Source: Nonomuraea angiospora
GTDB lineage: Bacteria; Actinomycetota; Actinomycetes; Streptosporangiales; Streptosporangiaceae
Direction of reading: 5' to 3'
Length of the DNA stretch: 64,000 nt
Assembly: GCF_014873145.1 (NCBI RefSeq)
Contig: NZ_JADBEK010000001.1
Location: 1,054,001 to 1,118,000, forward strand
Below the pieces are notes generated by a model that had not been told where the DNA came from, made no database searches, and saw only the letters and a program-made list of their open reading frames with translations. The position numbers and the translations under genes are program-made. Of this stretch, positions 6,856-31,762 are shown piece after piece. Positions within the stretch are counted from its first letter, which is position 1; each line of letters begins with the position of its first letter.

Positions 6856-8130
6856 TCAGGTCAGGGTGACTTCGACGGGGAGCTTCTTGATGCCGTTGAC
6901 GAAGTTGGAGCGGACGCGGGGCACGTCACCGGCGAGCCTGATCGAGGACAGGCGGGGGATGAGCTCCTCGAACATGATGCGGATCTCCGTACGGGCGAGG
7001 AGGTTGCCCAGGCAGAGGTGCGGGCTGCCTTTTCCGAAGGTGATGTGGTCGTTGTCCTGGCGGGCGACGTCGAAGTCGTAGGGGTCGGTGAAGACCTCCT
7101 CGTCCCGGTTGCCGGAGGCGTACCACATCACGACCTTGTCGCCTTCGCGGATGAGCTTGCCGCCGAGTTCGACGTCGCGGGTGGCGGTGCGGCGGAAGTG
7201 GTAGACCGGCGAGGCCCAGCGCAGGAACTCCTCGACCGCGGTCGGGATGAGGGACGGCTCCTCCTGGAGGCGTGCCAGCTGCTCGGGGTGCTGGATGAGC
7301 GCCAGCATCGAGTGGCTGATGGTGTGGCGGGTGGTCTCGTTGCCCGCGACGACCAGGAGCAGGAAGTAGTTGTCGAAGTCCTGCGAGGACAGGGGGACTC
7401 CGTCGCGCGGGGTCTCGTTGACGAGCTTGGAGATGAGGTCCGCGCCGGTGCCGCCGCGCCGCTGCCGGGCCAGTTCCCGGCCGTATTCGAAGACCTCCAG
7501 GGAGGCGGGCGAGCGGAACGGCAGGTCGCGGTATCGCTCGCTCTCCTCGCTGTGCAGGAGGACGTCGGCGTAGTCGGGGTCGGTGTTGCCGATGATGCGG
7601 TTGCCCCAGTCGATGAGTTTCTGGTTGTCCCCTGGCGGGACGTCGAGGAGCCGGGCCAGGACGTTGATGGGAAAGTCGGCGGAGACGTCGGCGACGAAGT
7701 CGAAGGAGCCCTTGGCGAGGGCGGCATCGAGCGTCTTGGCGGTGAGGCCGCGAAGGAAGTCGGTGTAGGAGCTGATCACGGAGTTGCCGAACTGGCGCTG
7801 GAGCAGGCTGCGCAGCGCGCGGTGCCGGACGCCGTCGAGCTCCAGGATGGAGGCACGCTTGGCGATCTGGTCGTCGTCGAGCTCTTCCAGGTTGACGAAC
7901 TTGGTGGAGGTGAAGGTCTCCGCGTCGCGGTCGACCCGGGCGACGTCGGCGTGCCGCGTGACGGCCCAGAAACCCGAGTTCGGGGAGGCTTCAGGCGTCC
8001 AGTGGACGGGGTCCTGGTGCCGCAGGGTGTGGAACATGCGCCACGGGGTGACGCCGTCGGTGAAGCGGTCAAGGTCGGAGAGGTCGACCTCATCCAGCGG
8101 AAGTGGCTCGGAAAGTGCGTCTTTGATCAC
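6856..8130 (-). CDS. Cytochrome P450 monooxygenase
   Basis: A 424-residue bacterial class I P450. The I-helix oxygen-activation motif is AGNETTRH, the K-helix ExxR is EFLR in EEFLRWASP, and the haem loop is FGKGSPHLCLG with the thiolate ligand Cys373. It inserts one atom of O2 into a substrate using electrons from a ferredoxin, and the ferredoxin and reductase genes lie just across the divergent promoter (9793-11210). The sequence is closest in style to the CYP124/125/142 or linalool-hydroxylase groups, but substrate cannot be assigned. The start is GTG 8130 with AAGGAACCCTC. It follows the GS-like gene by 16 bases in one operon, suggesting that it oxidises a gamma-glutamylated intermediate. 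Confidence 0.92.
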   Translation of the reverse strand: MIKDALSEPLPLDEVDLSDLDRFTDGVTPWRMFHTLRHQDPVHWTPEASPNSGFWAVTRHADVARVDRDAETFTSTKFVNLEELDDDQIAKRASILELDGVRHRALRSLLQRQFGNSVISSYTDFLRGLTAKTLDAALAKGSFDFVADVSADFPINVLARLLDVPPGDNQKLIDWGNRIIGNTDPDYADVLLHSEESERYRDLPFRSPASLEVFEYGRELARQRRGGTGADLISKLVNETPRDGVPLSSQDFDNYFLLLVVAGNETTRHTISHSMLALIQHPEQLARLQEEPSLIPTAVEEFLRWASPVYHFRRTATRDVELGGKLIREGDKVVMWYASGNRDEEVFTDPYDFDVARQDNDHITFGKGSPHLCLGNLLARTEIRIMFEELIPRLSSIRLAGDVPRVRSNFVNGIKKLPVEVTLT

Positions 8131-8146
8131 GAGGGTTCCTTCGGCG

Positions 8147-9502
8147 TCACAGGTGGTAGGCGTATTCGGTGAACTCCCAGTCGGTGACGTGCCGTTGGAA
8201 GCGTGCGACCTCTTCGCGTTTGTAGGAGAGGAAGGCGGCGACGGCGTCCACGCCGATGACGTCGGCGAGCAGGGCGTCGGCCTCCAGCGCGTCGAGCGCG
8301 GCGGGAAGGTTCATGGGGAGGACCGCGGCCTTGGCGGTGTCGTAGCCGTAGCCTTCGAGCGGGGCGGGAGGTTCCTCACCCGCCAGGACGCCCAGCAGCG
8401 CGGCGGCGGCCGTCCCCGCGATCAAGAGGTACGGGTTGGCTCCGGCGTCGGCCAGGCGCAGCTCGAAGCGGGCGCCTGGGCCGCGTTCCGGAGGGACGCG
8501 GAGCATGGCGCTGCGGTTGTCGAGGCCCCAGTCGATCAGCCAGGGCGCGAGGGTGTCGGGCCCGAACCGTTTGTAGGAATTGATGCTCGGGTTGAGCAGG
8601 GCGGCGAGTGCCGGCGCGTGGGCGAGGACTCCGGCGACCGCGTGACGGGCCGTGGCCGACAGTCCGTAGGGGGCCGCAGGGTCGTCGAAGGTGTTGGTGC
8701 CGTCGCCGTCCTCGCAGGAGAAATGCAGGTGGAAGCCAGATCCGCCGGCGTCGTTGAACGGCTTGGCCATGAACGTGGCGAGCTTTCCCTCCTGCCGGGC
8801 GAGCTCCTTGACGGCCGCTTTGAAACGGAAGGCGCGGTCGGCGGCGTCGAGCGCGGTGGAGTGGGTCAGATTGATCTCGATCTGGCCTCCGTCGAACTCG
8901 TGGTTGCCGCTGGTGACGCCGATGCCGAGGTCACGCAGCATCCGCAGGGTGCGCAGCAGGTGATTGTCGGGATCGGCGCGCAGGCCCGCCGTGTACACGG
9001 CGCCGGAGACCTCGCTGTAGCGGCGCCATCCGGCCGGCGAGGCCGGGTCGGGCTCGCACAGGAAGTACTCCAGTTCCGGCCCGACCACCGGGTGCAGTCC
9101 GTGTTCCGCGCAGCGGGCCAGAACGGTGCGCAGCAGGTCGCGCGGTGACTCCGGCGCGGGCGACCCGGTGCGGGGGTCCTCGACCTCTCCGAGGCACGAC
9201 GCGACGCCCGGCTCCCACGGCAGGCTGACGAGGGTGTCCAGGTCAGGGCGGACGATGACGTCCGGCAGTCCCGCGTCGAGCCCGCCCGCCACCGGGACCA
9301 CGTCGCCCTGGGGAGTGGTGTGGTAGACCGCCCGGCAGAAGGCGAGGCCATGCCGGAGAGCGGTGGGCAACTGGTCGACCAGGACGTCCCGGGCGCGGTC
9401 GACGCCGATCAGGTCGGGATAGGTCACCCGGACCACGTCGATGCCCTCGGCGGTGAGTCGTTCCAGGTGCTGTCTGACGTCGGGGTTCTCTGGTGCGCTC
9501 AC
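8147..9502 (-). CDS. Glutamine-synthetase-like gamma-glutamyl-amine ligase
   Basis: A 451-residue GS-superfamily enzyme of the GlnA3/GlnA4/PuuA/AtdA1 type, which couples glutamate to an amine with ATP. Visible motifs are GPELEYFL (metal/glutamate site), NHEFDGGQIEIN, KPFNDAGGSGFHLHFS (ATP/glutamate site), NSYKRFGP and the ERGPGARFELRLAD block with the glutamate-binding Arg. The start is GTG 9502 with TAGGAGACCCG. Upstream extension has no ribosome site. It is first in an operon with the P450 and is preceded by operator A. The neighbourhood of PuuC- and PuuD-like genes argues for gamma-glutamylation of a catabolic amine rather than ammonia assimilation. Canonical GS could only be excluded by structure or assay. 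Confidence 0.88.
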   Translation of the reverse strand: MSAPENPDVRQHLERLTAEGIDVVRVTYPDLIGVDRARDVLVDQLPTALRHGLAFCRAVYHTTPQGDVVPVAGGLDAGLPDVIVRPDLDTLVSLPWEPGVASCLGEVEDPRTGSPAPESPRDLLRTVLARCAEHGLHPVVGPELEYFLCEPDPASPAGWRRYSEVSGAVYTAGLRADPDNHLLRTLRMLRDLGIGVTSGNHEFDGGQIEINLTHSTALDAADRAFRFKAAVKELARQEGKLATFMAKPFNDAGGSGFHLHFSCEDGDGTNTFDDPAAPYGLSATARHAVAGVLAHAPALAALLNPSINSYKRFGPDTLAPWLIDWGLDNRSAMLRVPPERGPGARFELRLADAGANPYLLIAGTAAAALLGVLAGEEPPAPLEGYGYDTAKAAVLPMNLPAALDALEADALLADVIGVDAVAAFLSYKREEVARFQRHVTDWEFTEYAYHL

Positions 9503-9570
9503 CGGGTCTCCTAGGCGGATGTATGGGGGAGACGCCAGCCGGACGTGGAGACGAGCGTCGGTCCGACAGG

Positions 9571-9588
9571 ACGTTTGAAGCCAAACGT
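9571..9588 (-). promoter_or_regulatory. MarR-type operator A (GS/P450 promoter)
   Basis: Perfect inverted repeat ACGTTTG-AAGC-CAAACGT. It overlaps a candidate minus-strand -10 (TAACGT, 9585-9590) placed 17 bases from a TTGCGA -35 (9608-9613). It lies 69 bases upstream of the GS-like start. Four similar sites occur in the island. Confidence 0.65.
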
Positions 9589-9613
9589 TAAAGATGATGA
9601 CCCTCCTTCGCAA
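9585..9613 (-). promoter_or_regulatory. Candidate promoter of the GS-P450 operon
   Basis: On the minus strand TTGCGA (9613-9608) and TAACGT (9590-9585) are separated by 17 bases. The -10 lies inside operator A, the normal position for repression. Confidence 0.4.
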
Positions 9614-9649
9614 GGGGAGGGATACAGAAAATCTATCCATCCGGACGTC

Positions 9650-9678
9650 TTGACCCGGTGTCGGGTCCTCCTTATCTT
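9650..9678 (+). promoter_or_regulatory. Candidate promoter of the ferredoxin operon
   Basis: TTGACC (9650-9655) and TATCTT (9673-9678) with exactly 17 bases between them. Operator B starts at 9677 and overlaps the end of the -10. Confidence 0.55.
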
Positions 9679-9694
9679 ATTTGGAGTCAAACGA
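9677..9694 (+). promoter_or_regulatory. MarR-type operator B (ferredoxin operon promoter)
   Basis: TTATTTG-GAGT-CAAACGA, an imperfect copy of operator A overlapping the -10 of the ferredoxin promoter. Its outer bases match operator E upstream of the marR gene almost exactly (TTATcTG ... CAAACGA). Confidence 0.65.
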
Positions 9695-9792
9695 GTTTGG
9701 GGTCGAGTCGCCCCGGTGGCCAGGGCCCGGTCCCGGCAATGTCCGCGGGCGGGCCCTTCTCCATTTCTCTCGCCCCTTGGGAAGGACCGGCA

Positions 9793-9981
9793 ATGAGGGT
9801 CATCGTCGACATGAGCAAGTGCCAGGACCACGGACAGTGCGTCTTCGCCGCTCCCGACGTCTTCCGGATGGACGCGAACGGTCGGCTGGCCTACGTCAGC
9901 GATCCCCATGACGCGCTGCGCGAAGAGGTCGAGGAGGCGGCGGATGTCTGCCCCCTCCAAGCCATCCGGATCGAGGACTGA
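9793..9981 (+). CDS. 3Fe-4S ferredoxin, P450 electron donor
   Basis: A 62-residue small ferredoxin of the type paired with actinobacterial P450s. Cys10 and Cys16 (CQDHGQC) and the C-terminal VCP Cys are present, while the fourth ligand of 4Fe-4S proteins is missing, which predicts a 3Fe-4S cluster. ATG 9793 follows GAAGGACCGGCA. It is the first gene of the six-gene plus-strand operon, 5 bases from the reductase gene, and should pass electrons from that reductase to the P450 encoded divergently. Confidence 0.93.
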   Translation: MRVIVDMSKCQDHGQCVFAAPDVFRMDANGRLAYVSDPHDALREEVEEAADVCPLQAIRIED

Positions 9982-9986
9982 CCACG

Positions 9987-11210
9987 ATGAGTGGCCGGAT
10001 CGTCATCGCTGGAGCCTCTCTGGGAGGCCTGCGCGCCGCCGAGCAGCTGCGCGCCGCGGGCTGGGCCGGAATGATCACCGTTGTGGGGGACGAACCCCAC
10101 ATGCCCTACAACCGGCCGCCCCTGTCCAAGGAGGTCCTGGCCGGAAAGGCGGGCTTCGACTCCCTCGCGTTCACCCCGAAGGCCGGCGTCGCCGATGTGG
10201 AGTGGCGCCTCGGCACCGCCGTCACCGCGGCCCGGCTGGAGGAGGGCGTCGTCGTGCTCGATACCGGCGCGGAACTCACCTTCGACGGGCTGGTGATCGC
10301 CACCGGCATGCGACCCCGGCGGTTGGCCTGCCCGGGGCCTCGCGACGGCCGCCACACGGTGCGGACGCTCGACGACGCCCAGGCATTGCGCGCCGAACTG
10401 ATGCGCCCGGGAGCCATGGTCGTGGTGATCGGCGGCGGGTTCATCGGCTGCGAGGTGGCCGCCACGGCGGCCGGCCTCGGCGCCGCGGAGGTGACGGTCG
10501 TCGACCCGCTGCCACTGCCCATGGCCGGACCTCTGGGCGAGCTCCTGGGAGACGCCCTGCTCCGTCGGCATACCGATCGTGGGGTCCGTTTCCTGCTCGG
10601 CCGGGGCGTCGACGGCTTCCAGGGCGACGCCCGTGCCGAGGCGGTGGTCCTGGACGACGGCACGGTACTCGCCGCCGATGTGATCGTGGAGGCGGTCGGA
10701 TCCGTCGCGAACACCGAGTGGCTCGACGGGAACGGTCTCGATCTCACCGACGGAGTCCTCACCGACGACCGGCTGCGAGTCGGTGGTCTGCCGCACGTCG
10801 TAGCGGTCGGCGATGTCGCCCGTCACCCCAACGCCCGCTACGACGCCGTAGCACGGCGTGTCGAGCACTGGTCCATGCCGACTGAGACCGCCAAGCACGC
10901 CGCGAAGGCTCTCGTCGCCCAGCTGACCGGCGCGGTGCCGTTCCCCGGTCCGTTCGCGCCGCTGCCCACGTTCTGGAGCGATCAGCACGACTTCCGGCTC
11001 CAGTCCTTCGGCCTGCCGGTGCTGGGCAGGGACGACGTGCGGGTCCTGGAGGGCACTCCGGACGGCGACTTCGTCGCCGGTTACCACCGCGACGGCGGTC
11101 TGGTCGGCGTGGTGGCGCTCGGCGGCGCTCCTGCCGCCCTGGCCGCCTCCCGATACCGCGCCCAACTGCTCGGACAGCTCGTTCTCACCGCTCATGGAGT
11201 CCCCCGATGA
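9987..11210 (+). CDS. FAD-dependent ferredoxin reductase
   Basis: A 407-residue NAD(P)H:ferredoxin reductase of the putidaredoxin-reductase type. The N-terminal FAD Rossmann motif is IAGASLGGLRAAE, the NAD(P)H-binding motif is VVIGGGFIGCE near residue 147, and the FAD-binding C-terminal motif is HVVAVGDVA. A C-terminal reductase domain (FWSDQHDFRLQSFG) completes the fold. It lies directly after the ferredoxin gene and overlaps the next gene by 4 bases. Its expected role is delivering electrons NAD(P)H-FAD-ferredoxin-P450, which completes a class I P450 system inside one regulated divergent unit. Confidence 0.92.
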   Translation: MSGRIVIAGASLGGLRAAEQLRAAGWAGMITVVGDEPHMPYNRPPLSKEVLAGKAGFDSLAFTPKAGVADVEWRLGTAVTAARLEEGVVVLDTGAELTFDGLVIATGMRPRRLACPGPRDGRHTVRTLDDAQALRAELMRPGAMVVVIGGGFIGCEVAATAAGLGAAEVTVVDPLPLPMAGPLGELLGDALLRRHTDRGVRFLLGRGVDGFQGDARAEAVVLDDGTVLAADVIVEAVGSVANTEWLDGNGLDLTDGVLTDDRLRVGGLPHVVAVGDVARHPNARYDAVARRVEHWSMPTETAKHAAKALVAQLTGAVPFPGPFAPLPTFWSDQHDFRLQSFGLPVLGRDDVRVLEGTPDGDFVAGYHRDGGLVGVVALGGAPAALAASRYRAQLLGQLVLTAHGVPR

Positions 11211-12013
11211 CCGCCCTGCGTGGCTATTTCCATCCCAAGTCGGCGAGCGGCGGCTCGTCGCTGATCCCCTCGCCGCCCTGGCTGTACTCCGGTGACCTGC
11301 TCACCGTCGAGTACCGTACCGACCCCGATCGGGTGCGCGAGCTGCTGCCCGCGCCGCTGGAGCCGGCCGAGGACGACCCTGGGGCCGTCGCGCTGATCTG
11401 GGCCGACTGGCAGTCCTGCTCGACCGGCGGAACGGAACTGCTCGATCCGGTGCGTTCCCAGTACAAGGAGGCGTTCGTCGTCGTGCGCTGCTCCTATCAG
11501 GGGCGGACGTACTCACGCTGCGTCTACATCTGGGTCGACAAGGACTTCGCGATCGCACGGGGCCTGCACCAGGGTTACCCGAAGAAGCTCGGCTCGATCC
11601 ACCAGACCCGCCCCCACCCCTACGGGCCCGCACCGCGTATCGAGGCAGGAGCCCGGTTCGGCGCGACCCTCGCGGCGGCCGACCGGCGGCTGGCCCAGAC
11701 GGTGGTCACCCTGCGGGAACCCGCCGAGACCAACGGGTTCGTCAACGGCCACCCCATGGCCCACCACCGCTGGCTGCCGTCTGTCGAGAAGGGCAGGGGA
11801 CTGGCCCTCGACGAGCTGATCGAGTCGGGCGCCGCCTCCTTCGAGGGCGGCCGGCCATGGGTCGGCGACGCCGAGCTGGAACTGTTCGACGCGCCCACCG
11901 AGGAACTGTCCCGGCTGGAGATCCGTGAGCCCATCGCCGCCTACTACAGGCAGGTCGGCGTCGTCTGGGACGGCGGCCGGCTGCTGGCGTCCGGAACCTC
12001 CGGAGCCGAGTGA
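11207..12013 (+). CDS. Acetoacetate-decarboxylase-family protein
   Basis: A 268-residue protein of the ADC family. The Schiff-base lysine region GYPKKLGSI is intact. Family members decarboxylate beta-keto acids, but many homologues are hydratase-aldolases or have other Schiff-base chemistry. Location between a P450 electron chain and a ring-cleavage module suggests that it handles a keto-acid produced after ring opening or side-chain oxidation. It is translationally coupled to the reductase (ATGA overlap at 11207) and is followed by a 40-base gap to the ALDH. Exact reaction cannot be inferred. Confidence 0.8.
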   Translation: MTALRGYFHPKSASGGSSLIPSPPWLYSGDLLTVEYRTDPDRVRELLPAPLEPAEDDPGAVALIWADWQSCSTGGTELLDPVRSQYKEAFVVVRCSYQGRTYSRCVYIWVDKDFAIARGLHQGYPKKLGSIHQTRPHPYGPAPRIEAGARFGATLAAADRRLAQTVVTLREPAETNGFVNGHPMAHHRWLPSVEKGRGLALDELIESGAASFEGGRPWVGDAELELFDAPTEELSRLEIREPIAAYYRQVGVVWDGGRLLASGTSGAE

Positions 12014-12053
12014 CCGTGCGCTTCAACATGCTTTTCATCAACAGGAGGGTGGC

Positions 12054-13526
12054 ATGACCGACCACATCACCACGGTCGCCGGGGTCGCGGTCGACACCCG
12101 GCACTGGATCGGCGGCGCACGCGTCGCCTCCGAGGAGACCTTCACCGACGTCTCGCCCATCGACGGCAGCGTCCTGGGTGAGATCGCTCGCGGCACGGCG
12201 ACGGAGGCCACGGCCGCGGTCGCCGCCGCCACGGCGGCCTTCCCCGGCTGGGCAGCGACGCCCCGCGCCGAGCGGGCGCGCCTCCTGCACGCGATCGCCG
12301 ACGGCGTCGAGAAACGCCTCGAGGAGTTCGCGATCGTCGAGACCTCCGACAACGGCGCTCTGCTGCGCTCCCACCGCCGGGGCGTCATGCCGCGGGTCGC
12401 CCACAACTTCCGCTTCTTCGCCGACCGGCTGCTCGACCTCGGCCACGACGACTTCGAGACCCGAGGGCACACCAACCACGTCAGCTGGGACCCCGCCGGA
12501 CCGTGCGTGCTCATCACGCCGTGGAACGCACCGCTCATGCTGGCCACCTGGAAGATCGCCCCCGCCCTCGCGGCGGGGAACACCGTGATCCTCAAGCCCG
12601 CCGAGTGGACGCCGCTCACCGCCTCGCTGCTCGCGGACGTCACCGCCGAGGCCGGGCTGCCCGCCGGAGTTCTCAACATCGTGCAGGGCTACGGGGCCGA
12701 GGTGGGCGAGGCGCTCGTCACGCATGCCGACGTACGCCGCATCAGCTTCACAGGGTCGGTGCCGACCGCCCGGCGCATCGCCGTCGCGGCCGGAGACCAC
12801 CTCACCCCGCTGAGCCTGGAGCTCGGCGGCAAGTCGCCGTTGCTGGTCTTCGCCGACGCCGATCTCGACCTGGCCGTCGATCTGGCCGTCGAGCAGTACG
12901 ACAACGCCGGACAGGTCTGCCTGGCGGCCACCCGGATCCTCGTGGAGGAGACGATCGCGGAGGAGTTCACCCGCCGCTTCACCGCTAAGGCGGCCGCCTT
13001 GACCCAGGGCGACCCTCGCGACCCGGCCACCGACATCGGCCCCAACATCCACCCCCGCCAGGTGGAGAAGATCGACGGATTTGTACGGCGTGCCCTGAAC
13101 GCCGGAGCCCGCGCGATCATCGGCGGCGGCCCGAAGACCGACCTCGGCGGCCTCTACTACCGCCCCACGCTCCTGACCGACGTCGCCCAGGACAGCGAGA
13201 TCGTCCAGGAGGAGGTCTTCGGCCCGGTCCTGACCCTGCAGACCTTCGCCTCCGAGGACGAAGCGGTCGCCCTGGCCAACGACACCCGCTTCGGACTGGC
13301 GGCCACGCTGGCCACCGGCGACCCCGAGCGCGCCGAGCGGGTCTCCGCCCGGCTCGTGGCGGGCACCGTATGGGTGAACTGCTTCTTCGTCCGCGACCTT
13401 CGGGCACCTTTCGGCGGCGCCCGCCAGTCCGGCGTCGGCCGCGAGGGCGGAACCTGGAGCTTCGACTTCTACTGCGACCTCAAGAACACCGTGACCGCAC
13501 CGACCGAGGGGGTTCGGCATGGGTGA
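12054..13526 (+). CDS. Aldehyde dehydrogenase (HpaE-like)
   Basis: A 490-residue NAD(P)-dependent aldehyde dehydrogenase. The NAD-binding region is PWNAPLMLATWKIAPAL, the general base Glu sits in LELGGKS and the catalytic Cys in NAGQVCLAATR. EEVFGPVL and the PFGGARQSGVGREGG C-terminal signature are present. Position immediately before a class III extradiol dioxygenase and an FAH-family gene fits a semialdehyde dehydrogenase that oxidises the meta-cleavage product, as 5-carboxymethyl-2-hydroxymuconate semialdehyde dehydrogenase does in homoprotocatechuate breakdown. ATG 12054 follows CAGGAGGGTGGC. It overlaps the dioxygenase gene by 8 bases. Confidence 0.88.
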   Translation: MTDHITTVAGVAVDTRHWIGGARVASEETFTDVSPIDGSVLGEIARGTATEATAAVAAATAAFPGWAATPRAERARLLHAIADGVEKRLEEFAIVETSDNGALLRSHRRGVMPRVAHNFRFFADRLLDLGHDDFETRGHTNHVSWDPAGPCVLITPWNAPLMLATWKIAPALAAGNTVILKPAEWTPLTASLLADVTAEAGLPAGVLNIVQGYGAEVGEALVTHADVRRISFTGSVPTARRIAVAAGDHLTPLSLELGGKSPLLVFADADLDLAVDLAVEQYDNAGQVCLAATRILVEETIAEEFTRRFTAKAAALTQGDPRDPATDIGPNIHPRQVEKIDGFVRRALNAGARAIIGGGPKTDLGGLYYRPTLLTDVAQDSEIVQEEVFGPVLTLQTFASEDEAVALANDTRFGLAATLATGDPERAERVSARLVAGTVWVNCFFVRDLRAPFGGARQSGVGREGGTWSFDFYCDLKNTVTAPTEGVRHG

Positions 13527-14427
13527 GATCGTCGGCGCAGGCCTGCTGGCCCACGTCCCCACCATCGTGCTGCCCGAGGCCGATCGCCTGGAACTCAACG
13601 GGGGCAAGGAGATCACCCTCGTCACCGGGCTGCACCGGTTGCGCGCCGAGGTCTTCGACCGGGACGACTACGACACCGTCGTCGTACTCGACTCCCACTG
13701 GGCCACCACCGTCGAATTCGTCGTCACCGCCCAGGACCGGCGCGCCGGCCTGTTCACATCGGAGGAGCTGCCGCGCGGCATGTGCCGCATGCCCTACGAC
13801 TTCCCCGGTGACCCTGAGCTCGCCCGCAACATCGCCTCCTTCGGCGCTGAACGCGGCACCTGGATCACCCCCATCGACGACCCCTACCTGCCGATCTACT
13901 ACGCGACGATCAACCTCTGGAAGTTCCTCGGCGAGGGGCTCCCGGACAAGCGGTGGGTGACCATCGGCGTCTGCCAGACCGGCGACCTCGAAGACCACCT
14001 GCGCCTTGGCCGCGCCCTGGCCGACGGCATCGCCGCCACCCCCGGCCGCCGTGTCCTGCTCGTCGCCTCCGGCGCGCTCTCGCACACCTTCTGGCCGCTG
14101 CGCGAGCTGCGCGCCCACGAGGCGAGCGACCCCGCGCACATCTTCACCCCCGAGGCGCGCGAGGCCGACCACCAGCGCATCGCCTGGTTCAAGGAGGGCC
14201 GCCACGACCGGGTCCTCCAGACCATGGACGAGTTCTGGAAGTACAGGCCCGAGGCGAAGTTCTTCCACTACCTGATGCTCGCCGGTGCTCTCGGGGAGGG
14301 GGCATGCACCGCGCCCGCCCGCCAGTACGGGGAGTACGAGAACTCCATCGGCACCGGCCAGGCCCATCTCTGGTTCGACCGTCCAGCCGGCGGCTGGACC
14401 GCTCCCCGCCACACCCAGGAGGTCTGA
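13519..14427 (+). CDS. Class III extradiol ring-cleavage dioxygenase (LigB superfamily, HpaD-like)
   Basis: A 302-residue non-haem Fe(II) dioxygenase of the LigB/HpaD/DHPP-dioxygenase group, which splits a catechol next to a hydroxyl. Candidate metal and acid/base residues are His in LLAHVPT, His in VVLDSHWAT and His in SGALSHTFWP. The C-terminal HYLMLAGALG segment is typical for the family. It overlaps the ALDH gene by 8 bases and is followed by the FAH-family gene 1 base later. The expected product is a hydroxymuconate semialdehyde that the ALDH oxidises. The catechol substrate is unknown; homoprotocatechuate is the nearest precedent. Confidence 0.88.
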   Translation: MGEIVGAGLLAHVPTIVLPEADRLELNGGKEITLVTGLHRLRAEVFDRDDYDTVVVLDSHWATTVEFVVTAQDRRAGLFTSEELPRGMCRMPYDFPGDPELARNIASFGAERGTWITPIDDPYLPIYYATINLWKFLGEGLPDKRWVTIGVCQTGDLEDHLRLGRALADGIAATPGRRVLLVASGALSHTFWPLRELRAHEASDPAHIFTPEAREADHQRIAWFKEGRHDRVLQTMDEFWKYRPEAKFFHYLMLAGALGEGACTAPARQYGEYENSIGTGQAHLWFDRPAGGWTAPRHTQEV

Positions 14428-14428
14428 C

Positions 14429-15274
14429 ATGCCTGAATACCGCCGCATCCTGCTTGACGGCGTCGTCGTCGAGACGGTCCGGGAGGGGGAGGAACTCGTT
14501 GCCGGGGACGGTCGCCGGATCAAGGTCGAGGAGGCCCGCCATCTGCCGCCGGTCGTTCCGTCGAAGATCATCGCGGTGCATCTGAACCACCGAAGCCGGG
14601 TCGAGGAGTTCCAGATCAAGCTCGGGGGCACCCCGACCTACTTCCACAAGCCCACCTCGTCCCTCAACGCCCACGGTGGCGCGATCGTGCGGCCCGACGG
14701 CTGCAAGTGGCTGAACTACGAGGGGGAGGTGGCGATCGTCATCGGGAAGACCGCGCGGAACATCGCACCGGACGACGCGGGGGAGTACATCGCCGGCTAC
14801 ACCGTGGCCAACGACTTCGGCCTGCACGACTTCCGCGACACCGACGCCGGGTCGATGCTCCGCGTGAAGGGCTCCGACACGCTCTGCCCGCTCGGCCCGG
14901 GGCTCGTCACCGACTGGGACTTCCGCGGCAGGAGCCTGCGCACCCTTGTCAACGGGAAGGTGGTCCAGGACGGCTCCACCGACGAGATGACCTGGGACAT
15001 GCACTACCTCGTCGCCGACATCGCCCGCACCATCACCCTGTACCCGGGAGACGTGCTCCTGTCGGGCACCCCGGCCAACTCCCGTCCCGTCCGGCCCGGC
15101 GACGTCGTCGAGGTCGAGGTCGAGGGGCTCGGCAGGCTGACCAATCACGTGGTGGCCGGGCCGGCCGCCGTCCGCACCGACGTCGGCGCTCAGCCGACGG
15201 AGTCCGAGGAGGTCCTTTCGACGGCGCTCGGCGGCGACTGGGAGTTCCGCGGGATTCGTCCTCCGCGCCGGTAG
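14429..15274 (+). CDS. Fumarylacetoacetate-hydrolase-family protein
   Basis: A 281-residue FAH-fold enzyme acting on acylpyruvate-type ring-cleavage products (hydrolase, decarboxylase or isomerase such as HpaG). The metal site is visible as YFHKPTSSL, NYEGEVAIVIGK (Glu ligands) and NDFGLHDFRDTDAG. The C-terminal GDVLLSGTPANS is the family signature. ATG 14429 follows AGGAGGTCTGAC. It is the last gene of the plus-strand operon that starts with the ferredoxin at 9793 and ends close to the convergent amidotransferase gene. It should act after the dioxygenase and the aldehyde dehydrogenase. Confidence 0.88.
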   Translation: MPEYRRILLDGVVVETVREGEELVAGDGRRIKVEEARHLPPVVPSKIIAVHLNHRSRVEEFQIKLGGTPTYFHKPTSSLNAHGGAIVRPDGCKWLNYEGEVAIVIGKTARNIAPDDAGEYIAGYTVANDFGLHDFRDTDAGSMLRVKGSDTLCPLGPGLVTDWDFRGRSLRTLVNGKVVQDGSTDEMTWDMHYLVADIARTITLYPGDVLLSGTPANSRPVRPGDVVEVEVEGLGRLTNHVVAGPAAVRTDVGAQPTESEEVLSTALGGDWEFRGIRPPRR

Positions 15275-15281
15275 CGCCTGG

Positions 15282-15992
15282 TCAGCCGACGGGCAAGGCT
15301 ATCCGGTCGAGGAAGGCGTCGACCAGCTCGGCGGTCCTGGCCAGGGCCTGGGGCCGCTCCGCCAAGGTGCGCGACACCAGTTCGTCGGGGTCGATGCCGA
15401 GCCGGGCGCAGAGGGTCCCGCCGTCCAGGTCGAGCCAGGCCCGCAGGACCGGCGCGGTGATCTCTGGATGGAACTGGACGCCGAGGCTGCGTCCGGCGAC
15501 GAACGCCTGGAGGCCGGCCACGTTCCGGGCGATCTCCACCGCTCCGGGCGGCAGGACGCACCGGTCGTAGTGCCACTGGAACCACGGACCGGATGAGACG
15601 AGGTCGGGGATGTCGCTCTGGACGTCGGTCCAGCCGAGCTCCGGGAATGGCGCGGGCTCCACCGATCCGCCGAACGCCGTGGCAAGGGCCTGCGCGCCGA
15701 AGCAGATGCCCAGAACGGGAACGCCGAGATCGCGCGCCTCGCGCAGCAGGGCGAGTTCGCCCGCGATCCAGGTTCCGATCGTCTCCTCGTCGTACACGGA
15801 CCAGGGCGCGCCGAGGGAGACGACCAGATCCCACTCGGCGGCCGACGGGAACGCGAATGTCACGTCAGGTGAGTGGAAGCGCTCCTCCGGAACGACGGTC
15901 AGCGTGGTGAGGTCGTACCCGCGCTCGATGAGCCGGTCGCCGACCAGTCCGGGCTGTGAGGCGTGATCGTGCCGCAGGACGAGCGCACGCAT
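15282..15992 (-). CDS. Class-I glutamine amidotransferase-like hydrolase
   Basis: A 236-residue GATase1 protein of the GuaA-like/AtdA2-like group. The nucleophile elbow GICFGAQ, the GVQFHPE His-Glu pair and an SLGAPWSVYDEE substrate-side region are visible, giving a Cys-His-Glu triad. It stands alone, without a synthase domain, so it probably hydrolyses or transfers a gamma-glutamyl group. ATG 15992 is preceded by AAGGAGACCGCC. It is transcribed divergently from the ALDH at 16087 across operator C. In aniline pathways a free GATase-like protein accompanies the GS-like ligase, which makes that comparison attractive. Confidence 0.82.
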   Translation of the reverse strand: MRALVLRHDHASQPGLVGDRLIERGYDLTTLTVVPEERFHSPDVTFAFPSAAEWDLVVSLGAPWSVYDEETIGTWIAGELALLREARDLGVPVLGICFGAQALATAFGGSVEPAPFPELGWTDVQSDIPDLVSSGPWFQWHYDRCVLPPGAVEIARNVAGLQAFVAGRSLGVQFHPEITAPVLRAWLDLDGGTLCARLGIDPDELVSRTLAERPQALARTAELVDAFLDRIALPVG

Positions 15993-16044
15993 GGCGGTCT
16001 CCTTCCGAGGTCGTTGGACGGGGCGGGGGAGACTCGATGATATG

Positions 16045-16062
16045 TCATTTGGAGCCAAACAT
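16045..16062 (+). promoter_or_regulatory. MarR-type operator C (amidotransferase/ALDH divergent promoter)
   Basis: TCATTTG-GAGC-CAAACAT, located between the divergent starts at 15992 and 16087. It sits just downstream of a possible plus-strand TTGGAC/TGATAT promoter (16014-16019, 16038-16043). Confidence 0.65.
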
Positions 16063-16086
16063 GACTAGGTGGTCGGGAGGCCCCAC

Positions 16087-17577
16087 ATGCTGGAGATGAC
16101 CCATGAGCACTGGTCGAAGCGCGCCGAAGGTCTCAATCCCGGCGGTGCGCATCTGATCGGCGGCTCCGAGGAAGCGGGCTCGGGCGGCGCGTTTCCCGTC
16201 GTCGCGCCGCGTGACGGCAGGGTGCTGACGCACGTGGCCGATGCCGGAGCCGCCGAAGTGGACGCGGCCGTCGCCGCCGCGCGCCGCGCCTTCGACTCCG
16301 GCCCCTGGCCGAGGCTGGCGCCCGCCGAGCGCGGCCGGATCCTCATCCGTCTCGCCGATCTGCTGGAGGAACACCGCGAAGAGCTCGCCCTCACCATCAG
16401 CCTGGAAATGGGCAAGCCGATCACCGATGCCTACGCCATCGAGCTGCGCGCCGTCATCGCCACCTTCCGCTGGTACGGGCAGCTCGCCGACAAGGTCGCC
16501 GACGAGTCCCCCCACACCCCTGCGGACGCGCTCGCGCTGGTCACCAGGGAACCCGCCGGGGTGGTGGGCGCGGTCGTCCCATGGAACTTCCCGCTGACGC
16601 TCGCCGGATGGAAGATCGCGCCCGCGCTGGCGGCGGGGTGCACGGTCATCCTCAAGCCCTCGGAGTGGTCGCCGCTGTCGGCGCTGCTGCTGGGCCGGCT
16701 CGCCGGTGAGGCCGGGCTGCCGCCGGGCGTGCTGAACGTGGTGAACGGCGCCGGGCCGGTGGCGGGCCGGGCACTGGGGCTGCACCCGGACGTGGATGTC
16801 GTCGCCTTCACCGGCTCCACCGCTGTGGGACGCCACTTCCTGCGGTATGCGGCCGACTCCAATCTCAAACGGGTCTGGCTGGAGCTGGGCGGCAAGTCGC
16901 CCAACATCATCCTCCCGGACGCCCCCGACCTGGACAAGGCGGCGGCCACCGCCGCGTGGGGGATCTTCTTCAACCAGGGCGAGATGTGCACCGCGCCGTC
17001 GCGGCTCCTCGTCCACCGGTCCGTCGCCGATCAGGTCACCGAGGCCATCGTGCGACGCGCCGGTCAGCTGCGGGTCGGCGACCCGCTCGACCCGGCCACC
17101 GAGATGGGTGCGCTCGTCGGGGAGACCCATCTGGAGCGGGTGCTCGGTCACATCAGCGCGGGGGTGCGGGAGGGGGCCAGGCTGCGGACGGGCGGCGGTC
17201 GCGCGCGACCCGTGCCCGGGGGCAGCTACCTGGAGCCCACTGTCTTCGACCAGGTCGACCCGGGGCAGCGGCTCGCCCGAGAGGAGATCTTCGGCCCGGT
17301 GCTGTCCGTGCTGGCCTTCGACGACCTCGACGAGGCCGTGGCGCTGGCCAACGCCACCGAGTACGGCCTCGCGGCCGGCCTGTGGACGTCCGACCTGTCG
17401 ACCGCACACCGCGTCTCGCGTGCTCTGCGGGCGGGGACGGTCTGGGTCAACTGCTACGAGGAGGGCGACCTGACCGTGCCCTTCGGCGGGATGAAGCAGT
17501 CGGGCAACGGGCGTGACAAGTCCGTCCACGCCCTGGAGAAGTACACCGAACTCAAGACCACCTGGATCCAGCTGTGA
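16087..17577 (+). CDS. Aldehyde dehydrogenase (PuuC-like)
   Basis: A 496-residue aldehyde dehydrogenase. The key motifs are PWNFPLTLAGWKIAPAL, the Glu in LELGGKS, the catalytic Cys in NQGEMCTAPSR, EEIFGPVL and PFGGMKQSGNGRD. The sequence style and the coupled PuuD-like gene suggest gamma-glutamyl-aminoaldehyde dehydrogenase activity, as PuuC performs in the putrescine pathway. The ATG at 16087 was chosen because GGGAGGCCCCAC sits in front; a GTG at 16069 is in frame but poorly placed. The stop overlaps the next start by 4 bases. It is controlled from operator C. Confidence 0.87.
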   Translation: MLEMTHEHWSKRAEGLNPGGAHLIGGSEEAGSGGAFPVVAPRDGRVLTHVADAGAAEVDAAVAAARRAFDSGPWPRLAPAERGRILIRLADLLEEHREELALTISLEMGKPITDAYAIELRAVIATFRWYGQLADKVADESPHTPADALALVTREPAGVVGAVVPWNFPLTLAGWKIAPALAAGCTVILKPSEWSPLSALLLGRLAGEAGLPPGVLNVVNGAGPVAGRALGLHPDVDVVAFTGSTAVGRHFLRYAADSNLKRVWLELGGKSPNIILPDAPDLDKAAATAAWGIFFNQGEMCTAPSRLLVHRSVADQVTEAIVRRAGQLRVGDPLDPATEMGALVGETHLERVLGHISAGVREGARLRTGGGRARPVPGGSYLEPTVFDQVDPGQRLAREEIFGPVLSVLAFDDLDEAVALANATEYGLAAGLWTSDLSTAHRVSRALRAGTVWVNCYEEGDLTVPFGGMKQSGNGRDKSVHALEKYTELKTTWIQL

Positions 17578-18287
17578 CCCGTCCCCTGATAGCGATCCCC
17601 GCCCGCTTCTCCGCCTCCGCATCAGCCCTGCGGTACTCCGCGGAGGTCACCGCCCGCGCGCTGGTCGAGGCCGTCTGGCGGGCGGGCGGAGAGCCGGTCT
17701 CCCTCCATCCCGACGCGCCTGGAGGCGTCGCCGACCCGGCCGAGGTCGCGTTCCGGCTCGCCCGGTTCGACGGAGTACTGCTGCCCGGCGGCGGAGACCT
17801 CGCCCCTCGCCGCTACGGGGCCGTCGATACGCATGAGAGCGTCTACGACGTGGACGACGTACAGGACGGATTCGATCTCGAAGTGGCACGGCAGGCCCTG
17901 ACGGCGGGCGTGCCCCTGCTGGCCGTCTGCCGCGGCCTCCAGGTCGTCAACGTCGCCCTGGGTGGCAGCCTCGACCAGGACATGGGCGGACCCGGTCGGG
18001 AACACCGTCACGTCGTCCAGCCCGTCGTCGTGGCCGGCGGTTCCCTGCTGTCGCGGGCTGTCGGATCAGACAAGGTGGCCGCTTCCTGTTATCACCACCA
18101 GCGGGTGGACCGGCTGGGGGAGGGCCTGGTGGCGACCGCCTGGGCCGCCGACGGCACCGTCGAGGCCCTCGAGCTCCCAGGCCGCGCCTGGTTCGCCGCC
18201 GTGCAGTGGCATCCGGAGGACAGGGCGCACGAGGACCCGACCCAGCAAGCGATCTTCGACGCGCTGGTGGAAGCGGCTGGCCGCTGA
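17574..18287 (+). CDS. PuuD-like gamma-glutamyl hydrolase (class-I amidotransferase fold)
   Basis: A 237-residue peptidase C26 family hydrolase that removes gamma-glutamyl groups, as gamma-glutamyl-GABA hydrolase PuuD does. Visible features are LLPGGGDLAPRRYG, nucleophile Cys in AVCRGLQVVN and His-Glu in AVQWHPED. GTG 17574 overlaps the ALDH stop, so the two are coupled. It would release the product carboxylate and glutamate after aldehyde oxidation. Together with the GS-like ligase it closes a gamma-glutamyl protection cycle. A PuuB-type oxidase is not present in the window. Confidence 0.87.
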   Translation: MTRPLIAIPARFSASASALRYSAEVTARALVEAVWRAGGEPVSLHPDAPGGVADPAEVAFRLARFDGVLLPGGGDLAPRRYGAVDTHESVYDVDDVQDGFDLEVARQALTAGVPLLAVCRGLQVVNVALGGSLDQDMGGPGREHRHVVQPVVVAGGSLLSRAVGSDKVAASCYHHQRVDRLGEGLVATAWAADGTVEALELPGRAWFAAVQWHPEDRAHEDPTQQAIFDALVEAAGR

Positions 18288-20060: not shown

Positions 20061-20990
20061 TCAGGACATGTGATTGATCAGACTCCAGTGGAGGAAAAAG
20101 TCTGCCTCCTTGTAATCCGGGTAGAGCGCCGTGATCCGGGCGGTGGCGTCATCGATGTTCTTGGCGCTCCTGACGATCCGCAGGTAGTTGTCGAAATAGC
20201 CGATCTGCTCGTTGAGCATCGACAGGTCACCCGGGTCGCCGTGGCCCGGATAGACGACCGGGTTCAGCGATCGATATCTGTCGCGGAGGTTTCCCAGTTC
20301 TTCTCGCCAGACGGCCACGCGGTCGAGCGTGATGTCGTCGCCCATCCACGGATGGACCTTGTTGTAGGCGAGGTCGGAGAGGAACAGGGCGTTGTTCGAC
20401 GGGCAGTAGACCGTCGTCATGTAGTGCGCCTCGGTCGCCGGGTAGTCCGTCTCCACCTCGCAGCTGCCGCCGCCCTGGAGGTGGAGCTTCTTCCCGCCGA
20501 GCAGCTTGATGTCATGCTCGTAGTCGAAGCCCTGAGGGAAGGAGCGAGACTTCGGCCGCAGGGATTCGTCCAGCGCGCCGAGGCCGTCCATGTAAACGGC
20601 GTAGTCCTTGATGTCGCGACGAATGTTCTTGTTGGCGGCGAGGATGCGTGCCTGCGGGAACTGGTCTCGGAAGAGGGGCATTCCCGCGAAGTGGTCGGTG
20701 TGGCCGTGTGTGATCAGCACCTGCCGCAGCGGAAGGCCGAGCCTCCGCACCTGGTCTGCCAGCTTCTGGGCTTCCGCTTTCGTGCGCTGGACGTCGATGA
20801 CGGTCAGCGACCGGCCGTTCGACAGGATGTAGGAGTTGACCGTCGCGAACCCGCCTTTGTGGACGGTCACGCTGATCTTGACCTTCTCCGAGGTTCCCTT
20901 CCTCTCGGACGCGTTCGCCGGTGTGGCCGAGGGCGCCAGGGTCAGGACCGCGAGCCCCGCTCCCAATGTCATCAGATTTCTTCTTTTCAC
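20061..20990 (-). CDS. Secreted metallo-beta-lactamase-fold hydrolase
   Basis: A 309-residue MBL-fold enzyme with a signal peptide (KRRNLMTLGAGLAVLTLAP, then ATPANA). The zinc motif HGHTDH is complete, followed by an AHYMTT His, SDLAYNKVHP with the bridging Asp and a C-terminal YPGHGDPG His. I prefer GTG 20990, which has AAGGAG 7 bases upstream. An ATG 6 bases earlier would leave only 1 base of spacing. It is first in an operon with the serine hydrolase, under operator D (21033-21050). It may hydrolyse a lactone, thioester or amide in the periphery of the cell. Substrate unknown. Confidence 0.82.
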   Translation of the reverse strand: MKRRNLMTLGAGLAVLTLAPSATPANASERKGTSEKVKISVTVHKGGFATVNSYILSNGRSLTVIDVQRTKAEAQKLADQVRRLGLPLRQVLITHGHTDHFAGMPLFRDQFPQARILAANKNIRRDIKDYAVYMDGLGALDESLRPKSRSFPQGFDYEHDIKLLGGKKLHLQGGGSCEVETDYPATEAHYMTTVYCPSNNALFLSDLAYNKVHPWMGDDITLDRVAVWREELGNLRDRYRSLNPVVYPGHGDPGDLSMLNEQIGYFDNYLRIVRSAKNIDDATARITALYPDYKEADFFLHWSLINHMS

Positions 20991-21032
20991 TCGCATACTC
21001 CTTAAAGGGCGCATCCGTGGTTTTGTGGTGCC

Positions 21033-21050
21033 TCGTTTGTGTCCAAACAG
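21033..21050 (-). promoter_or_regulatory. MarR-type operator D (MBL/serine hydrolase operon)
   Basis: TCGTTTG-TGTC-CAAACAG, 43 bases upstream of the MBL start. It shares the TTTG-N4-CAAA core with the other four sites. Confidence 0.6.
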
Positions 21051-22075: not shown

Positions 22076-22930
22076 TTAGACAACCCTCGGTTCGAGCCCG
22101 AAGACCCGGGCCGCGTTGTCGTGCAGGACCTTCCCCAGCACGTCGTCGGGCAGGCCGAACCCGTGGTAGCGGTCCACGATCTCCGGCAGCGGGCAGTAGG
22201 GATAGTTGCTCGCGAACAGGAAGCGGTCCTGGAGGTAGGTCCGCATGGCCAGCAGGTAGTCATGCTCCCCGGGCAGCCCGGGGAAGTAGACATCGGGCAT
22301 CATCCACACATTGCGGCGGCGGAACGCCACCCCGAGAGCCTCCTGCACGAAGGGCCAGCCACCGTGCACATAGATGATGTCGAGCCGCGGGAACCGGATC
22401 GCGACCCGCTCGTGCCTGAGCGGATCGCTGTAGGACAGGTCGGGTCCTGTCTCACCGCCCCCCATCAGGAGCAGGGGGAGACCCGCGGACTGGCAGGCGT
22501 CGTAGACGGGATCGACGACGGGGTCATCGAGGTGTACGGGGGTGCCGGCGAGTCCGGGCTCGACGACGATCCCGCGCGCGCCGCGGGCCCGGAGCCGGGC
22601 GATGGTGACCTCGGGATCCGGGTCGAAGGCGTCGACGGCACCGCAGGCGTGGAAGAACTCCGGCCTGTCCTCGACCGCCGCGAACACGGGGTCGTTCCCC
22701 TGGCCGCCCCACAGATCGTTCGGAACACGAGCGGCGAGACCGGCCTGCCGCACTCCCGCGGCGGCGCAGTCGCTCAGATAGGCGTCCATGGACGGTGCCG
22801 CCATCGACGGAGGCACCGTCCATCCACGCTCGCGCACGCCCCGCAGGGTGCCCTGGAGATCGGCCCAGGTCCGGTCGTTGACGAAGGCCTCGATCGGAGG
22901 GCACACGCGGGCGTCGATGATGTTGTCCAT
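22076..22930 (-). CDS. Amidohydrolase_2 (ACMSD-like) family protein lacking the HxH motif
   Basis: A 284-residue TIM-barrel protein of the amidohydrolase-related/ACMSD family. The N-terminal strand reads IIDARVCPP where active relatives have DxHxH, and the late motif is FASNYPY where relatives have ASDYPH. The His of IIYVHGGWPFV is kept. Two of the metal-binding elements are therefore altered, so it may be metal-free, differently active or a binding protein. It begins 3 bases after the amidohydrolase_3 stop. Start ATG 22930. Confidence 0.75.
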   Translation of the reverse strand: MDNIIDARVCPPIEAFVNDRTWADLQGTLRGVRERGWTVPPSMAAPSMDAYLSDCAAAGVRQAGLAARVPNDLWGGQGNDPVFAAVEDRPEFFHACGAVDAFDPDPEVTIARLRARGARGIVVEPGLAGTPVHLDDPVVDPVYDACQSAGLPLLLMGGGETGPDLSYSDPLRHERVAIRFPRLDIIYVHGGWPFVQEALGVAFRRRNVWMMPDVYFPGLPGEHDYLLAMRTYLQDRFLFASNYPYCPLPEIVDRYHGFGLPDDVLGKVLHDNAARVFGLEPRVV

Positions 22931-22933
22931 GGA

Positions 22934-24625: not shown

Positions 24626-24645
24626 GTGGTCTCCTTGCCTGCGGG

Positions 24646-26495: not shown

Positions 26496-26497
26496 GG

Positions 26498-28296: not shown

Positions 28297-28526
28297 GGTG
28301 ATTCCTTCGCTGGGAGCGGTTCAGAGGAGTTCATTGACAGCTCCGGAGGGAGTGCCGATACTAACGGGATCGTAAGACCCCAAACGGTAGCAGTCGACCG
28401 CCACCAGCACCAGAGTCGTCAAAAGGGAATCCCCGAGCGCACGACTGCCCACCGATTCCGTGATCGCGGACGTCGAATCGCCAATTCCGACGTCGCGCCA
28501 AGCGCCCATATGAGGAAGGCATTGGC
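28297..28526. promoter_or_regulatory. Divergent promoter region of the importer
   Basis: About 230 bases between the DppB-like and binding-protein starts. It must carry both promoters. A weak, mismatched copy of the island's operator (TCGTAAG-ACCC-CAAACGG) lies at 28370-28387; only the right half is convincing. Confidence 0.35.
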
Positions 28527-30173: not shown

Positions 30174-30217
30174 GCACGCCGACGATGATCGATACGGAAA
30201 GAGCAGGAGAACACCCC

Positions 30218-31717: not shown

Positions 31718-31744
31718 GTGATCAGCGTCCTCCGAACTCACATC

Positions 31745-31762
31745 TTATCTGGGCCCAAACGA
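31745..31762 (-). promoter_or_regulatory. MarR-type operator E (marR autoregulation)
   Basis: TTATCTG-GGCC-CAAACGA. It lies 28 bases upstream of the marR ATG and overlaps a TAAGAT -10-like element (minus strand, 31747-31742). It matches operator B at 14 of 18 positions. Confidence 0.6.

Follow-up and report, generated by a model that had tools for sequence, protein, structure and literature searches.

Gene content of the locus

The stretch analysed here (the window) comprises 64,000 nucleotides of Nonomuraea angiospora, positions 1,054,001 to 1,118,000 of contig NZ_JADBEK010000001.1, which is the single contig of a 13.09 Mb genome. It contains a gene cluster in which a glutamine synthetase (GS)-like ligase and a cytochrome P450 lie beside genes for meta-cleavage of aromatic rings and for the breakdown of gamma-glutamyl amines. 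The genes that an original prediction, made from the letters alone, had named between 6856 and 18287 were all recovered there by Pfam and NCBIfam scans, on the same strands and at the same coordinates. The minus strand carries the P450 (6856-8130, GTG start; PF00067, 84 bits) and the putative GS-like amine:glutamate ligase (8147-9502; PF00120, 316 bits; GTG start at 9502 chosen, reading frame open from 9640), which form one operon with 16 bp between the end of the GS-like gene and the start of the P450. A divergent operon on the plus strand runs from a single-cluster ferredoxin (9793-9981, ATG at 9793; PF13370, 52 bits; motif CxxHxxC...CP) through an FAD/NAD(P) ferredoxin reductase (9987-11210; PF07992 and PF14759), an MppR-like protein of the ADC superfamily (11207-12013; PF06314, 201 bits), an HpaE-like semialdehyde dehydrogenase (12054-13526) and a LigB-type extradiol dioxygenase (13519-14427; PF02900, 76 bits) to an FAH-family protein (14429-15274; PF01557, 191 bits).

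Behind this operon, a class-I GATase-like hydrolase on the minus strand (15282-15992; PF00117, 56 bits; Cys and HPE motifs) diverges from a plus-strand pair encoding a PuuC-like gamma-glutamyl-aminoaldehyde dehydrogenase (16087-17577, with a reading frame that may start at 16069) and a PuuD-like gamma-glutamyl hydrolase (17574-18287; PF07722, 159 bits; CRGLQ and HPE motifs). Gene ends overlap or almost touch at the reductase/ADC, HpaE/LigB, LigB/FAH and PuuC/PuuD junctions. Neither a Rieske oxygenase nor PuuB is among the cluster genes scanned with Pfam and NCBIfam (the scans took in neither every open reading frame of the window nor, for PuuB, the remaining genome), and none of these genes matched HpaB, HpaH or HpaI, the last two not having been searched elsewhere in the genome. 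No non-ribosomal peptide synthetase or polyketide synthase gene is present among the genes identified in the cluster.

A shared operator and its candidate regulator

A palindromic candidate operator is common to both divergent promoters, to the PuuC/GATase promoter and to a metallohydrolase gene of the MBL fold. Its copies are GTTTGAAGCCAAAC (9573-9586) upstream of the GS-P450 operon, ATTTGGAGTCAAAC (9679-9692) upstream of the ferredoxin-to-FAH operon, ATTTGGAGCCAAAC (16047-16060) between the divergent GATase and PuuC-PuuD genes, and GTTTGTGTCCAAAC (21035-21048) directly upstream of the MBL-fold gene. The pattern RTTTGNNNNCAAAY occurs at six places in the 13.09 Mb genome (three when the pattern is read backwards), four of them at this locus (9573, 9679, 16047 and 21035), and the other two lie between open reading frames without a visible link to the pathway. 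The idea that PuuC-PuuD is an unrelated neighbour behind the GATase gene was ruled out by the copy of the same operator in their promoter region. Neither this operator nor the ADC-like gene had figured in the original prediction.

The operator before the MBL-fold gene (20061-21014, minus strand; PF00753, 45 bits; signal sequence likely, by eye) extends the set to this hydrolase, and perhaps beyond. A possible role for the protein would be a secreted first step that frees the amine from a conjugate; no homologs were found in the flanks of 95 loci of relatives. The probable regulator of the set is a MarR-family protein (31124-31741, minus strand; PF01047), which would pair with the operator: a degenerate copy, TCTGGGCCCAAACGA, lies at 31748, just before the start of its gene, and relatives 50-69% identical occur in 20 of the 95 loci. 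Those that adjoin PuuD include the MarR genes of L050, L064, L094 and L096, at 56-70% identity. In Streptomyces, a TetR gene could alternatively be the regulator; this TetR and the Streptomyces permease, sought elsewhere in the N. angiospora genome, gave weak matches, the best-scoring ones 33% and 28% identical, respectively. Between the cluster and the MarR gene (22076-31033) lie two amidohydrolases (one Amidohydro_2, one Amidohydro_3), an SDR and parts of a family-5 ABC importer together with its binding protein. L123 has an Amidohydro_3 gene (53% identical) adjoining PuuD, and L101 has another.

Predicted functions of the enzymes

The ligase scores below the NCBIfam cut-offs for GlnA, type III GS and gamma-glutamylputrescine synthetase, with 247 bits against a cut-off of 650 for the PuuA-type model (NF045547). 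In an alignment with the five GS paralogs of the same genome, with residue columns picked by eye, the flap glutamate (Glu327) is replaced by Leu and the equivalent of Tyr179 by Val, whereas the DGSS motif of GS (Asp50/Ser53) gives way to a longer segment, in a loop that is hard to align and where the exact alignment is uncertain. Judged by these residues, the ligase is not a glutamine synthetase, as those handling ammonium are gone. The roles of the ammonium-site residues are described in the available part of PMC6529630, which reports similar losses in two amine:glutamate ligases, GlnA4 of Streptomyces coelicolor and PauA7 of Pseudomonas aeruginosa, and describes PauA7 as able to glutamylate aromatic monoamines. 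For Streptomyces, polyamines and ethanolamine are known targets of gamma-glutamylation. The present ligase shares with both enzymes a GS fold without the acids of the ammonium site; it sits with ring-cleavage genes, whereas that part of PMC6529630 makes no link between GlnA4 or PauA7 and ring cleavage.

The P450 shows the heme-cysteine and AGNETT motifs, and its best solved-structure match is 8vxi (CYP125MRCA, 402 bits), followed by CYP124. It is proposed to make the catechol, either through 3-hydroxylation of the ring or through demethylation. P450s at least 64% identical were found in 14 of 150 genomes of the same family (its own included), all 14 with an adjoining GS gene, an association beyond chance, and the next two P450s in these genomes (51% and 46%) lie, one of them, beside a GS 37% alike and, the other, on a short contig without GS. 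A related amine cluster of another kind is perhaps represented by L051 (1107-5235), where a P450 (50% identical), a GS-like ligase (37%) and, by eye, a permease-like protein stand in tandem on a 9 kb contig without ring-cleavage genes.

The ring-cleavage enzymes are nearest to those for homoprotocatechuate. LigB best matches TIGR02298 (HpaD_Fe) among NCBIfam families (116 bits, cut-off 316) and, among solved structures, the 3,4-dihydroxyphenylacetate 2,3-dioxygenase 8iq8 (69 bits), with a 3,4-dihydroxyphenylalanine (DOPA) dioxygenase, 29ky, also among the matches; a structure model of LigB built from five sequences reached a mean pLDDT (predicted local distance difference test) of 39 and was not used. 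For the HpaE-like dehydrogenase, TIGR02299 (HpaE) is the best of 43 NCBIfam families, at 523 bits and below the cut-off of 638. The FAH protein, a proposed decarboxylase/isomerase, matches PRK12764 best (229 bits, cut-off 444) and the HpaG C-terminal model second (201 bits, cut-off 276). The ADC-like protein scores 178 bits with TIGR04460 (MppR), short of the equivalog cut-off of 380, and its best solved match is MppR itself (4jm3, 166 bits), followed by 6eej, 4zbo and 5upb, in all four of which a lysine aligns with that of the PK in its YPKK motif. It thus combines the ADC domain with the aligned Schiff-base lysine of the MppR-like ADC superfamily, of which 4zbo and 5upb are presumably pyruvate aldolase-dehydratases. 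By these similarities, the ADC-like protein may be the hydratase-aldolase missing from the set, which would release pyruvate. In the available part of PMC7820114, MppR is a pyruvate aldolase of enduracididine biosynthesis that condenses pyruvate with an aldehyde, and ADC-family proteins of Saccharolobus, strongly induced on phenol, are proposed as aldolases of an archaeal meta-pathway. The ADC-like protein is thus related in sequence to 4jm3, 4zbo and 5upb and shares their aligned lysine, the pyruvate aldolase chemistry being that of MppR, whereas it differs from MppR in lying inside a meta-cleavage operon and in the retro direction proposed for it.

PuuC is the best NCBIfam match of the PuuC-like dehydrogenase (568 bits, cut-off 850), and PRK11366 (PuuD) that of the PuuD-like hydrolase (69 bits, cut-off 266). 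The GATase, which scores 108 bits with PRK07053 (cut-off 250), is a possible second gamma-glutamyl hydrolase.

Conservation among relatives

A scan with the GS protein over contigs of one genome per species yielded 350 relatives, of which the best 80 loci were kept, so that this sample leans to close relatives; nearly all of them are from Streptomyces, with three from Kitasatospora, one from Sphaerisporangium and one from an actinomycete bin. Flanks are complete in 72 of these 80 loci, with GS preceded by no less than 6.3 kb and followed by no less than 1.6 kb, and 71 of the 72 contain the ADC, HpaE, LigB and FAH genes, the exception being L096. The P450, the ferredoxin and the reductase are each present in 67 of the 72, with the same five loci (L064, L073, L092, L096 and L123) lacking all three, which indicates that in close relatives these three are kept or lost together while other genes persist without them. 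In two of the P450-less loci, L064 and L123, DNA at about 9620-9850 upstream of GS resembles by eye a decayed ferredoxin start, suggesting loss of the P450 module. Among the 70 loci with 9.8 kb before GS, an amino-acid-type permease was found in 59, TetR in 65, PuuC in 45, PuuD in 12 and GATase in 12, all counted within stretches whose edge often cuts PuuC or stops short of PuuD. In 14 of these 70 loci, the space from FAH to the end of the stretch holds a second P450 together with a ferredoxin of its own, and some of these loci, L054 among them, show no PuuC; a luciferase-like gene is present in 10 of the 70, as in L054 (832-3422), where one of the F420 type follows the second P450 and ferredoxin.

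The operator is conserved as well. Its inner form, TTTGNNNNCAAA, was found at least once in 71 of the 72 GS upstream regions (the 450 bp before GS up to the GS start) and twice in 41 of them, the expectation derived from the rest of the same loci being 0.0075 per region. Several loci, among them L053, L058, L072 and L086, have further sites where PuuC or GATase starts.

More distant lineages were reached through LigB, which, searched in 394 genomes of the class, gave 30 matches with E-values of 1e-50 or lower. One of these is the window's own; of the other 29, 21 were taken, and six of the eight left out are 85-88% identical in one genus. HpaE and FAH adjoin LigB in 20 of these 21 loci (not in L199), and the P450 is present in 16, GS in 16, and both in 14; of the seven that lack P450 and/or GS, three lie on contigs shorter than 10 kb. 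These distant lineages retain the set with GS down to 43% identical and the P450 at about 60%, and the GATase, PuuD, MarR and a luciferase-like protein recur among them. Conservation of the ligase-P450 linkage across relatives, set beforehand as a check on the original prediction, was thus borne out in 67 of 72 close and 14 of 21 distant loci, whereas five and seven, respectively, do not or cannot show it. More distant lineages can swap the electron carriers: in L180 and L187 the P450 lacks ferredoxin and ferredoxin reductase and is accompanied by a VanB-like reductase, and in L050 (6899-10214) a 746-aa fusion joins the P450 to an NAD-binding/2Fe-2S reductase of the VanB-like type, next to a Rieske protein whose C-terminal domain is VanA; that stretch yielded no ferredoxin and reductase as separate genes. 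A conserved protein of about 510-540 aa lies near the cluster in L195 (13593-15209), L192 (12537-14072) and L194 (12522-14063); Pfam gave no match for the copies of L195 and L192, nor did NCBIfam for that of L195.

A group II pyridoxal phosphate-dependent decarboxylase gene follows the ferredoxin reductase on the same strand in six of the 21 LigB-anchored loci (L181, L186, L195, L196, L197 and L198), the gap between aligned ends ranging from zero up to about 330 bp. Among solved structures it matches a DOPA decarboxylase best (199.3 bits), with a decarboxylase of the desferrioxamine pathway practically tied (199.0 bits), and weaker homologs occur in L188 (36%, behind FAH) and L050 (32%). The presence of this gene beside the cluster hints at an amino acid as the source of the amine.

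A proposed pathway for masked aromatic amines

With a probability of roughly 0.55, we read the set as a catabolic regulon for aromatic amines of the phenethylamine type that are masked with a gamma-glutamyl group, tyramine being the most likely substrate and dopamine its catechol. Dopamine differs from homoprotocatechuate solely in having CH2CH2NH2 in place of CH2COOH. The route would start with the GS-like ligase, joining the amine to the gamma-carboxyl of glutamate, after which the P450, served by its own ferredoxin and reductase, would make the catechol gamma-glutamyl-dopamine. LigB would cleave the ring adjacent to its hydroxyl groups, the HpaE-like enzyme would oxidise the resulting semialdehyde, the FAH protein would carry out isomerisation and decarboxylation, and the ADC-like protein would hydrate the product and split off pyruvate. 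The remainder would be gamma-glutamyl-4-aminobutanal, to be oxidised by PuuC to gamma-glutamyl-GABA (gamma-glutamyl-gamma-aminobutyrate), from which PuuD, and perhaps the GATase too, would release GABA and glutamate. With the amine capped by glutamate, the aldehyde intermediates would be prevented from cyclising onto it, and the MarR repressor would control the set through the GTTTGnnnnCAAAC operator. The atom balance closes, gamma-glutamyl-dopamine giving C9H16N2O4 (gamma-glutamyl-4-aminobutanal, the substrate of PuuC), pyruvate and CO2; since LigB and the HpaE-like enzyme are nearest to homoprotocatechuate enzymes and the ADC-like protein to a pyruvate aldolase, gamma-glutamyl-dopamine would yield exactly what PuuC needs. 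We infer the reactions, their order, the substrate and the pairing of regulator and operator; the direct observations are which genes are present, how the operons are laid out, their conservation, the family assignments, the operator they share and, by alignment, the residue loss of the ligase. A broader claim falls slightly short of even odds, namely that in many Streptomyces and other actinobacteria the amine is capped before ring hydroxylation and stays capped through meta-cleavage, the ring being converted to gamma-glutamyl-GABA, with a P450 that hydroxylates a gamma-glutamyl amine and an aldolase of the ADC family that replaces the classical hydratase and aldolase.

Several observations weigh against this reading. 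The named enzymes all fall below NCBIfam equivalog cut-offs, so that their substrates are only suggested, and the operator pattern was derived from the first three of the four sites in the window, which leaves the fourth site and the relatives as independent evidence. Among the loci, L096 has GS, permease, PuuC and PuuD without ring-cleavage genes and without an operator before GS, L199 has LigB alone, and L184 has the P450 and ring genes with no GS in its 19.5 kb stretch. No PuuC above 41% identity was found in the 21 LigB-anchored stretches; by analogy, the HpaE-like enzyme might cover this step in those distant lineages, since the homoprotocatechuate-pathway dehydrogenase of Acinetobacter also oxidises succinic semialdehyde, according to the available part of PMC12718150. 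The decarboxylase could serve another amino acid, as suggested by the tie between its solved matches and by its best NCBIfam match, L-2,4-diaminobutyrate decarboxylase (191 bits, cut-off 900). A homology search of 116 loci placed the gene in 8, all outside the GS-anchored 80, and the six in which it follows the reductase come from two families and thus represent few independent events; PF00282 has six matches in the 13 Mb genome of N. angiospora, none of them in the window. Finally, benzylamine and noradrenaline skeletons also balance, giving amino acids other than GABA.

Other observations of this kind concern the front end of the route and hint at a different substrate. A gene with a formyltransferase domain (PF00551), which we take to be formyl-tetrahydrofolate deformylase-like, adjoins GS in L181 (10148-11002), L185, L186 and L194, and Rieske genes occur in L050, L180, L187 and L191, the L050 copy with its VanA C-terminal domain and the other three 45-65% alike to it, each with a VanB-like reductase. 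Together, they suggest that some lineages remove methyl groups, and the P450 of L050 is itself fused to a VanB-like reductase. The back half of masked-amine ring opening could then be the same while the P450, or in other lineages the Rieske or luciferase-like enzyme, takes methyl groups off phenethylamines or benzylamines that carry them as methoxy or N-methyl substituents (for example 3-methoxytyramine, vanillylamine or N-methyltyramine) instead of hydroxylating tyramine. We regard this version as unlikely, albeit deserving attention: a search that did not extend to the window placed the formyltransferase gene in 4 of 116 loci, all of them outside the GS-anchored 80, and the decarboxylase loci favour amines derived from amino acids, though L181 and L186 carry both kinds of gene. 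In any case, the variant loci (those with formyltransferase, Rieske or second P450 genes, L096 and L184) make the hydroxylase or demethylase of the front end less certain than the back half.

Alternatively, the locus could hold a pair of independent pathways answering to a single regulator: GS, PuuC, PuuD and permease would handle an aliphatic amine in the Puu manner, and the P450 would serve ring cleavage of the homoprotocatechuate kind, with plant-derived compounds inducing both. The gene sets of L096 and L184, as well as those of L190 and L191, which have GS and ring genes without the P450, would fit this arrangement, which is nonetheless improbable given that GS and P450 share one operon and that ring-cleavage genes lie beside GS in 71 of 72 loci. 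Moreover, without a PuuB-like oxidase, absent from the cluster genes, an aliphatic amine gives no aldehyde, which ring cleavage would supply, and HpaB, HpaH and HpaI have no match among those genes. Very improbable, in turn, is the aniline-type route suggested in the original prediction, in which a gamma-glutamylanilide would be oxidised by the P450, lose its nitrogen and be meta-cleaved as catechol. The GS-like ligase and its GATase-like partner do resemble the AtdA1/AtdA2 pair, but this route was ruled out as the principal interpretation by PuuC and PuuD, which it leaves without a role, and by the lack of a Rieske dioxygenase among the cluster genes; LigB and the HpaE-like enzyme are besides nearest to the Hpa set for 4-alkylcatechols, and the enzymes as a whole indicate an aminoalkyl side chain. 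What held of that prediction is its outline, gamma-glutamylation, P450 and meta-cleavage in one conserved unit with a shared operator. There is equally little to recommend a biosynthetic cluster for a pigment or peptide precursor, although MppR belongs to enduracididine biosynthesis and some LigB enzymes make DOPA-derived products (29ky being a DOPA dioxygenase), since no non-ribosomal peptide or polyketide synthase gene was identified in the cluster, the permease, regulator, dehydrogenases and hydrolases are catabolic in type, and conservation is wide, with one operator.

Relation to known systems and significance

The proposed catabolism of gamma-glutamyl-masked tyramine resembles several known systems in part. 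The E. coli Puu pathway (PuuA-PuuB-PuuC-PuuD) likewise employs a gamma-glutamyl cap, an aldehyde dehydrogenase and a gamma-glutamyl hydrolase, and its last two intermediates would be identical if the proposed substrate is right; its aldehyde comes from the PuuB oxidase, whereas here it would come from the cleavage of an aromatic substrate. Pseudomonas putida U reportedly has a 3,4-dihydroxyphenylacetate catabolon for tyramine and dopamine (Arcos et al. 2010), thus for the same kind of substrate and with meta-cleavage of the HpaD/HpaE/HpaG type. There the amine is first oxidised off to give a phenylacetate, whereas here it would stay glutamate-capped through ring opening and leave as GABA, and the ADC-like protein and the P450 stand in the places of HpaH/HpaI and the flavin hydroxylase. 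The AtdA/TdnQ aniline pathways share a GS-like ligase and a GATase-like partner, and differ in using a Rieske dioxygenase, with loss of the nitrogen. A GS-like gene is also found near the PipA/MorA (CYP151) systems, which differ in their saturated N-heterocyclic substrates and are not known to include a ring-cleavage dioxygenase set. Compared by gene context, these Mycobacterium systems for piperidine, pyrrolidine and morpholine likewise place a P450, ferredoxin and reductase by a GS-like gene for an amine substrate. In Gulosibacter, PMC9477822 names both P450s along with glutamine synthetase genes of neighbouring number.

The original prediction had called a P450 acting on a gamma-glutamyl amine an unfamiliar combination. 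No report of the whole set was found, but a P450 beside a GS-like gene is not entirely new, PipA/MorA being a precedent. Neither the cluster nor bacterial ring cleavage of gamma-glutamyl-tyramine or gamma-glutamyl-dopamine appeared in the titles and abstract beginnings of the open-access literature, a weak negative as subscription journals lay mostly outside it. The cluster, widely conserved in soil bacteria, looks like an undescribed catabolic route for aromatic amines. If the proposed pathway is true, the degradation of gamma-glutamyl amines and the meta-cleavage of homoprotocatechuate would be joined into a third pathway, which would explain the presence of a GS-like ligase, a P450 and PuuC/PuuD in one regulon, give MppR-like ADC proteins a catabolic role, and provide a function for a gene set present in many Streptomyces genomes.

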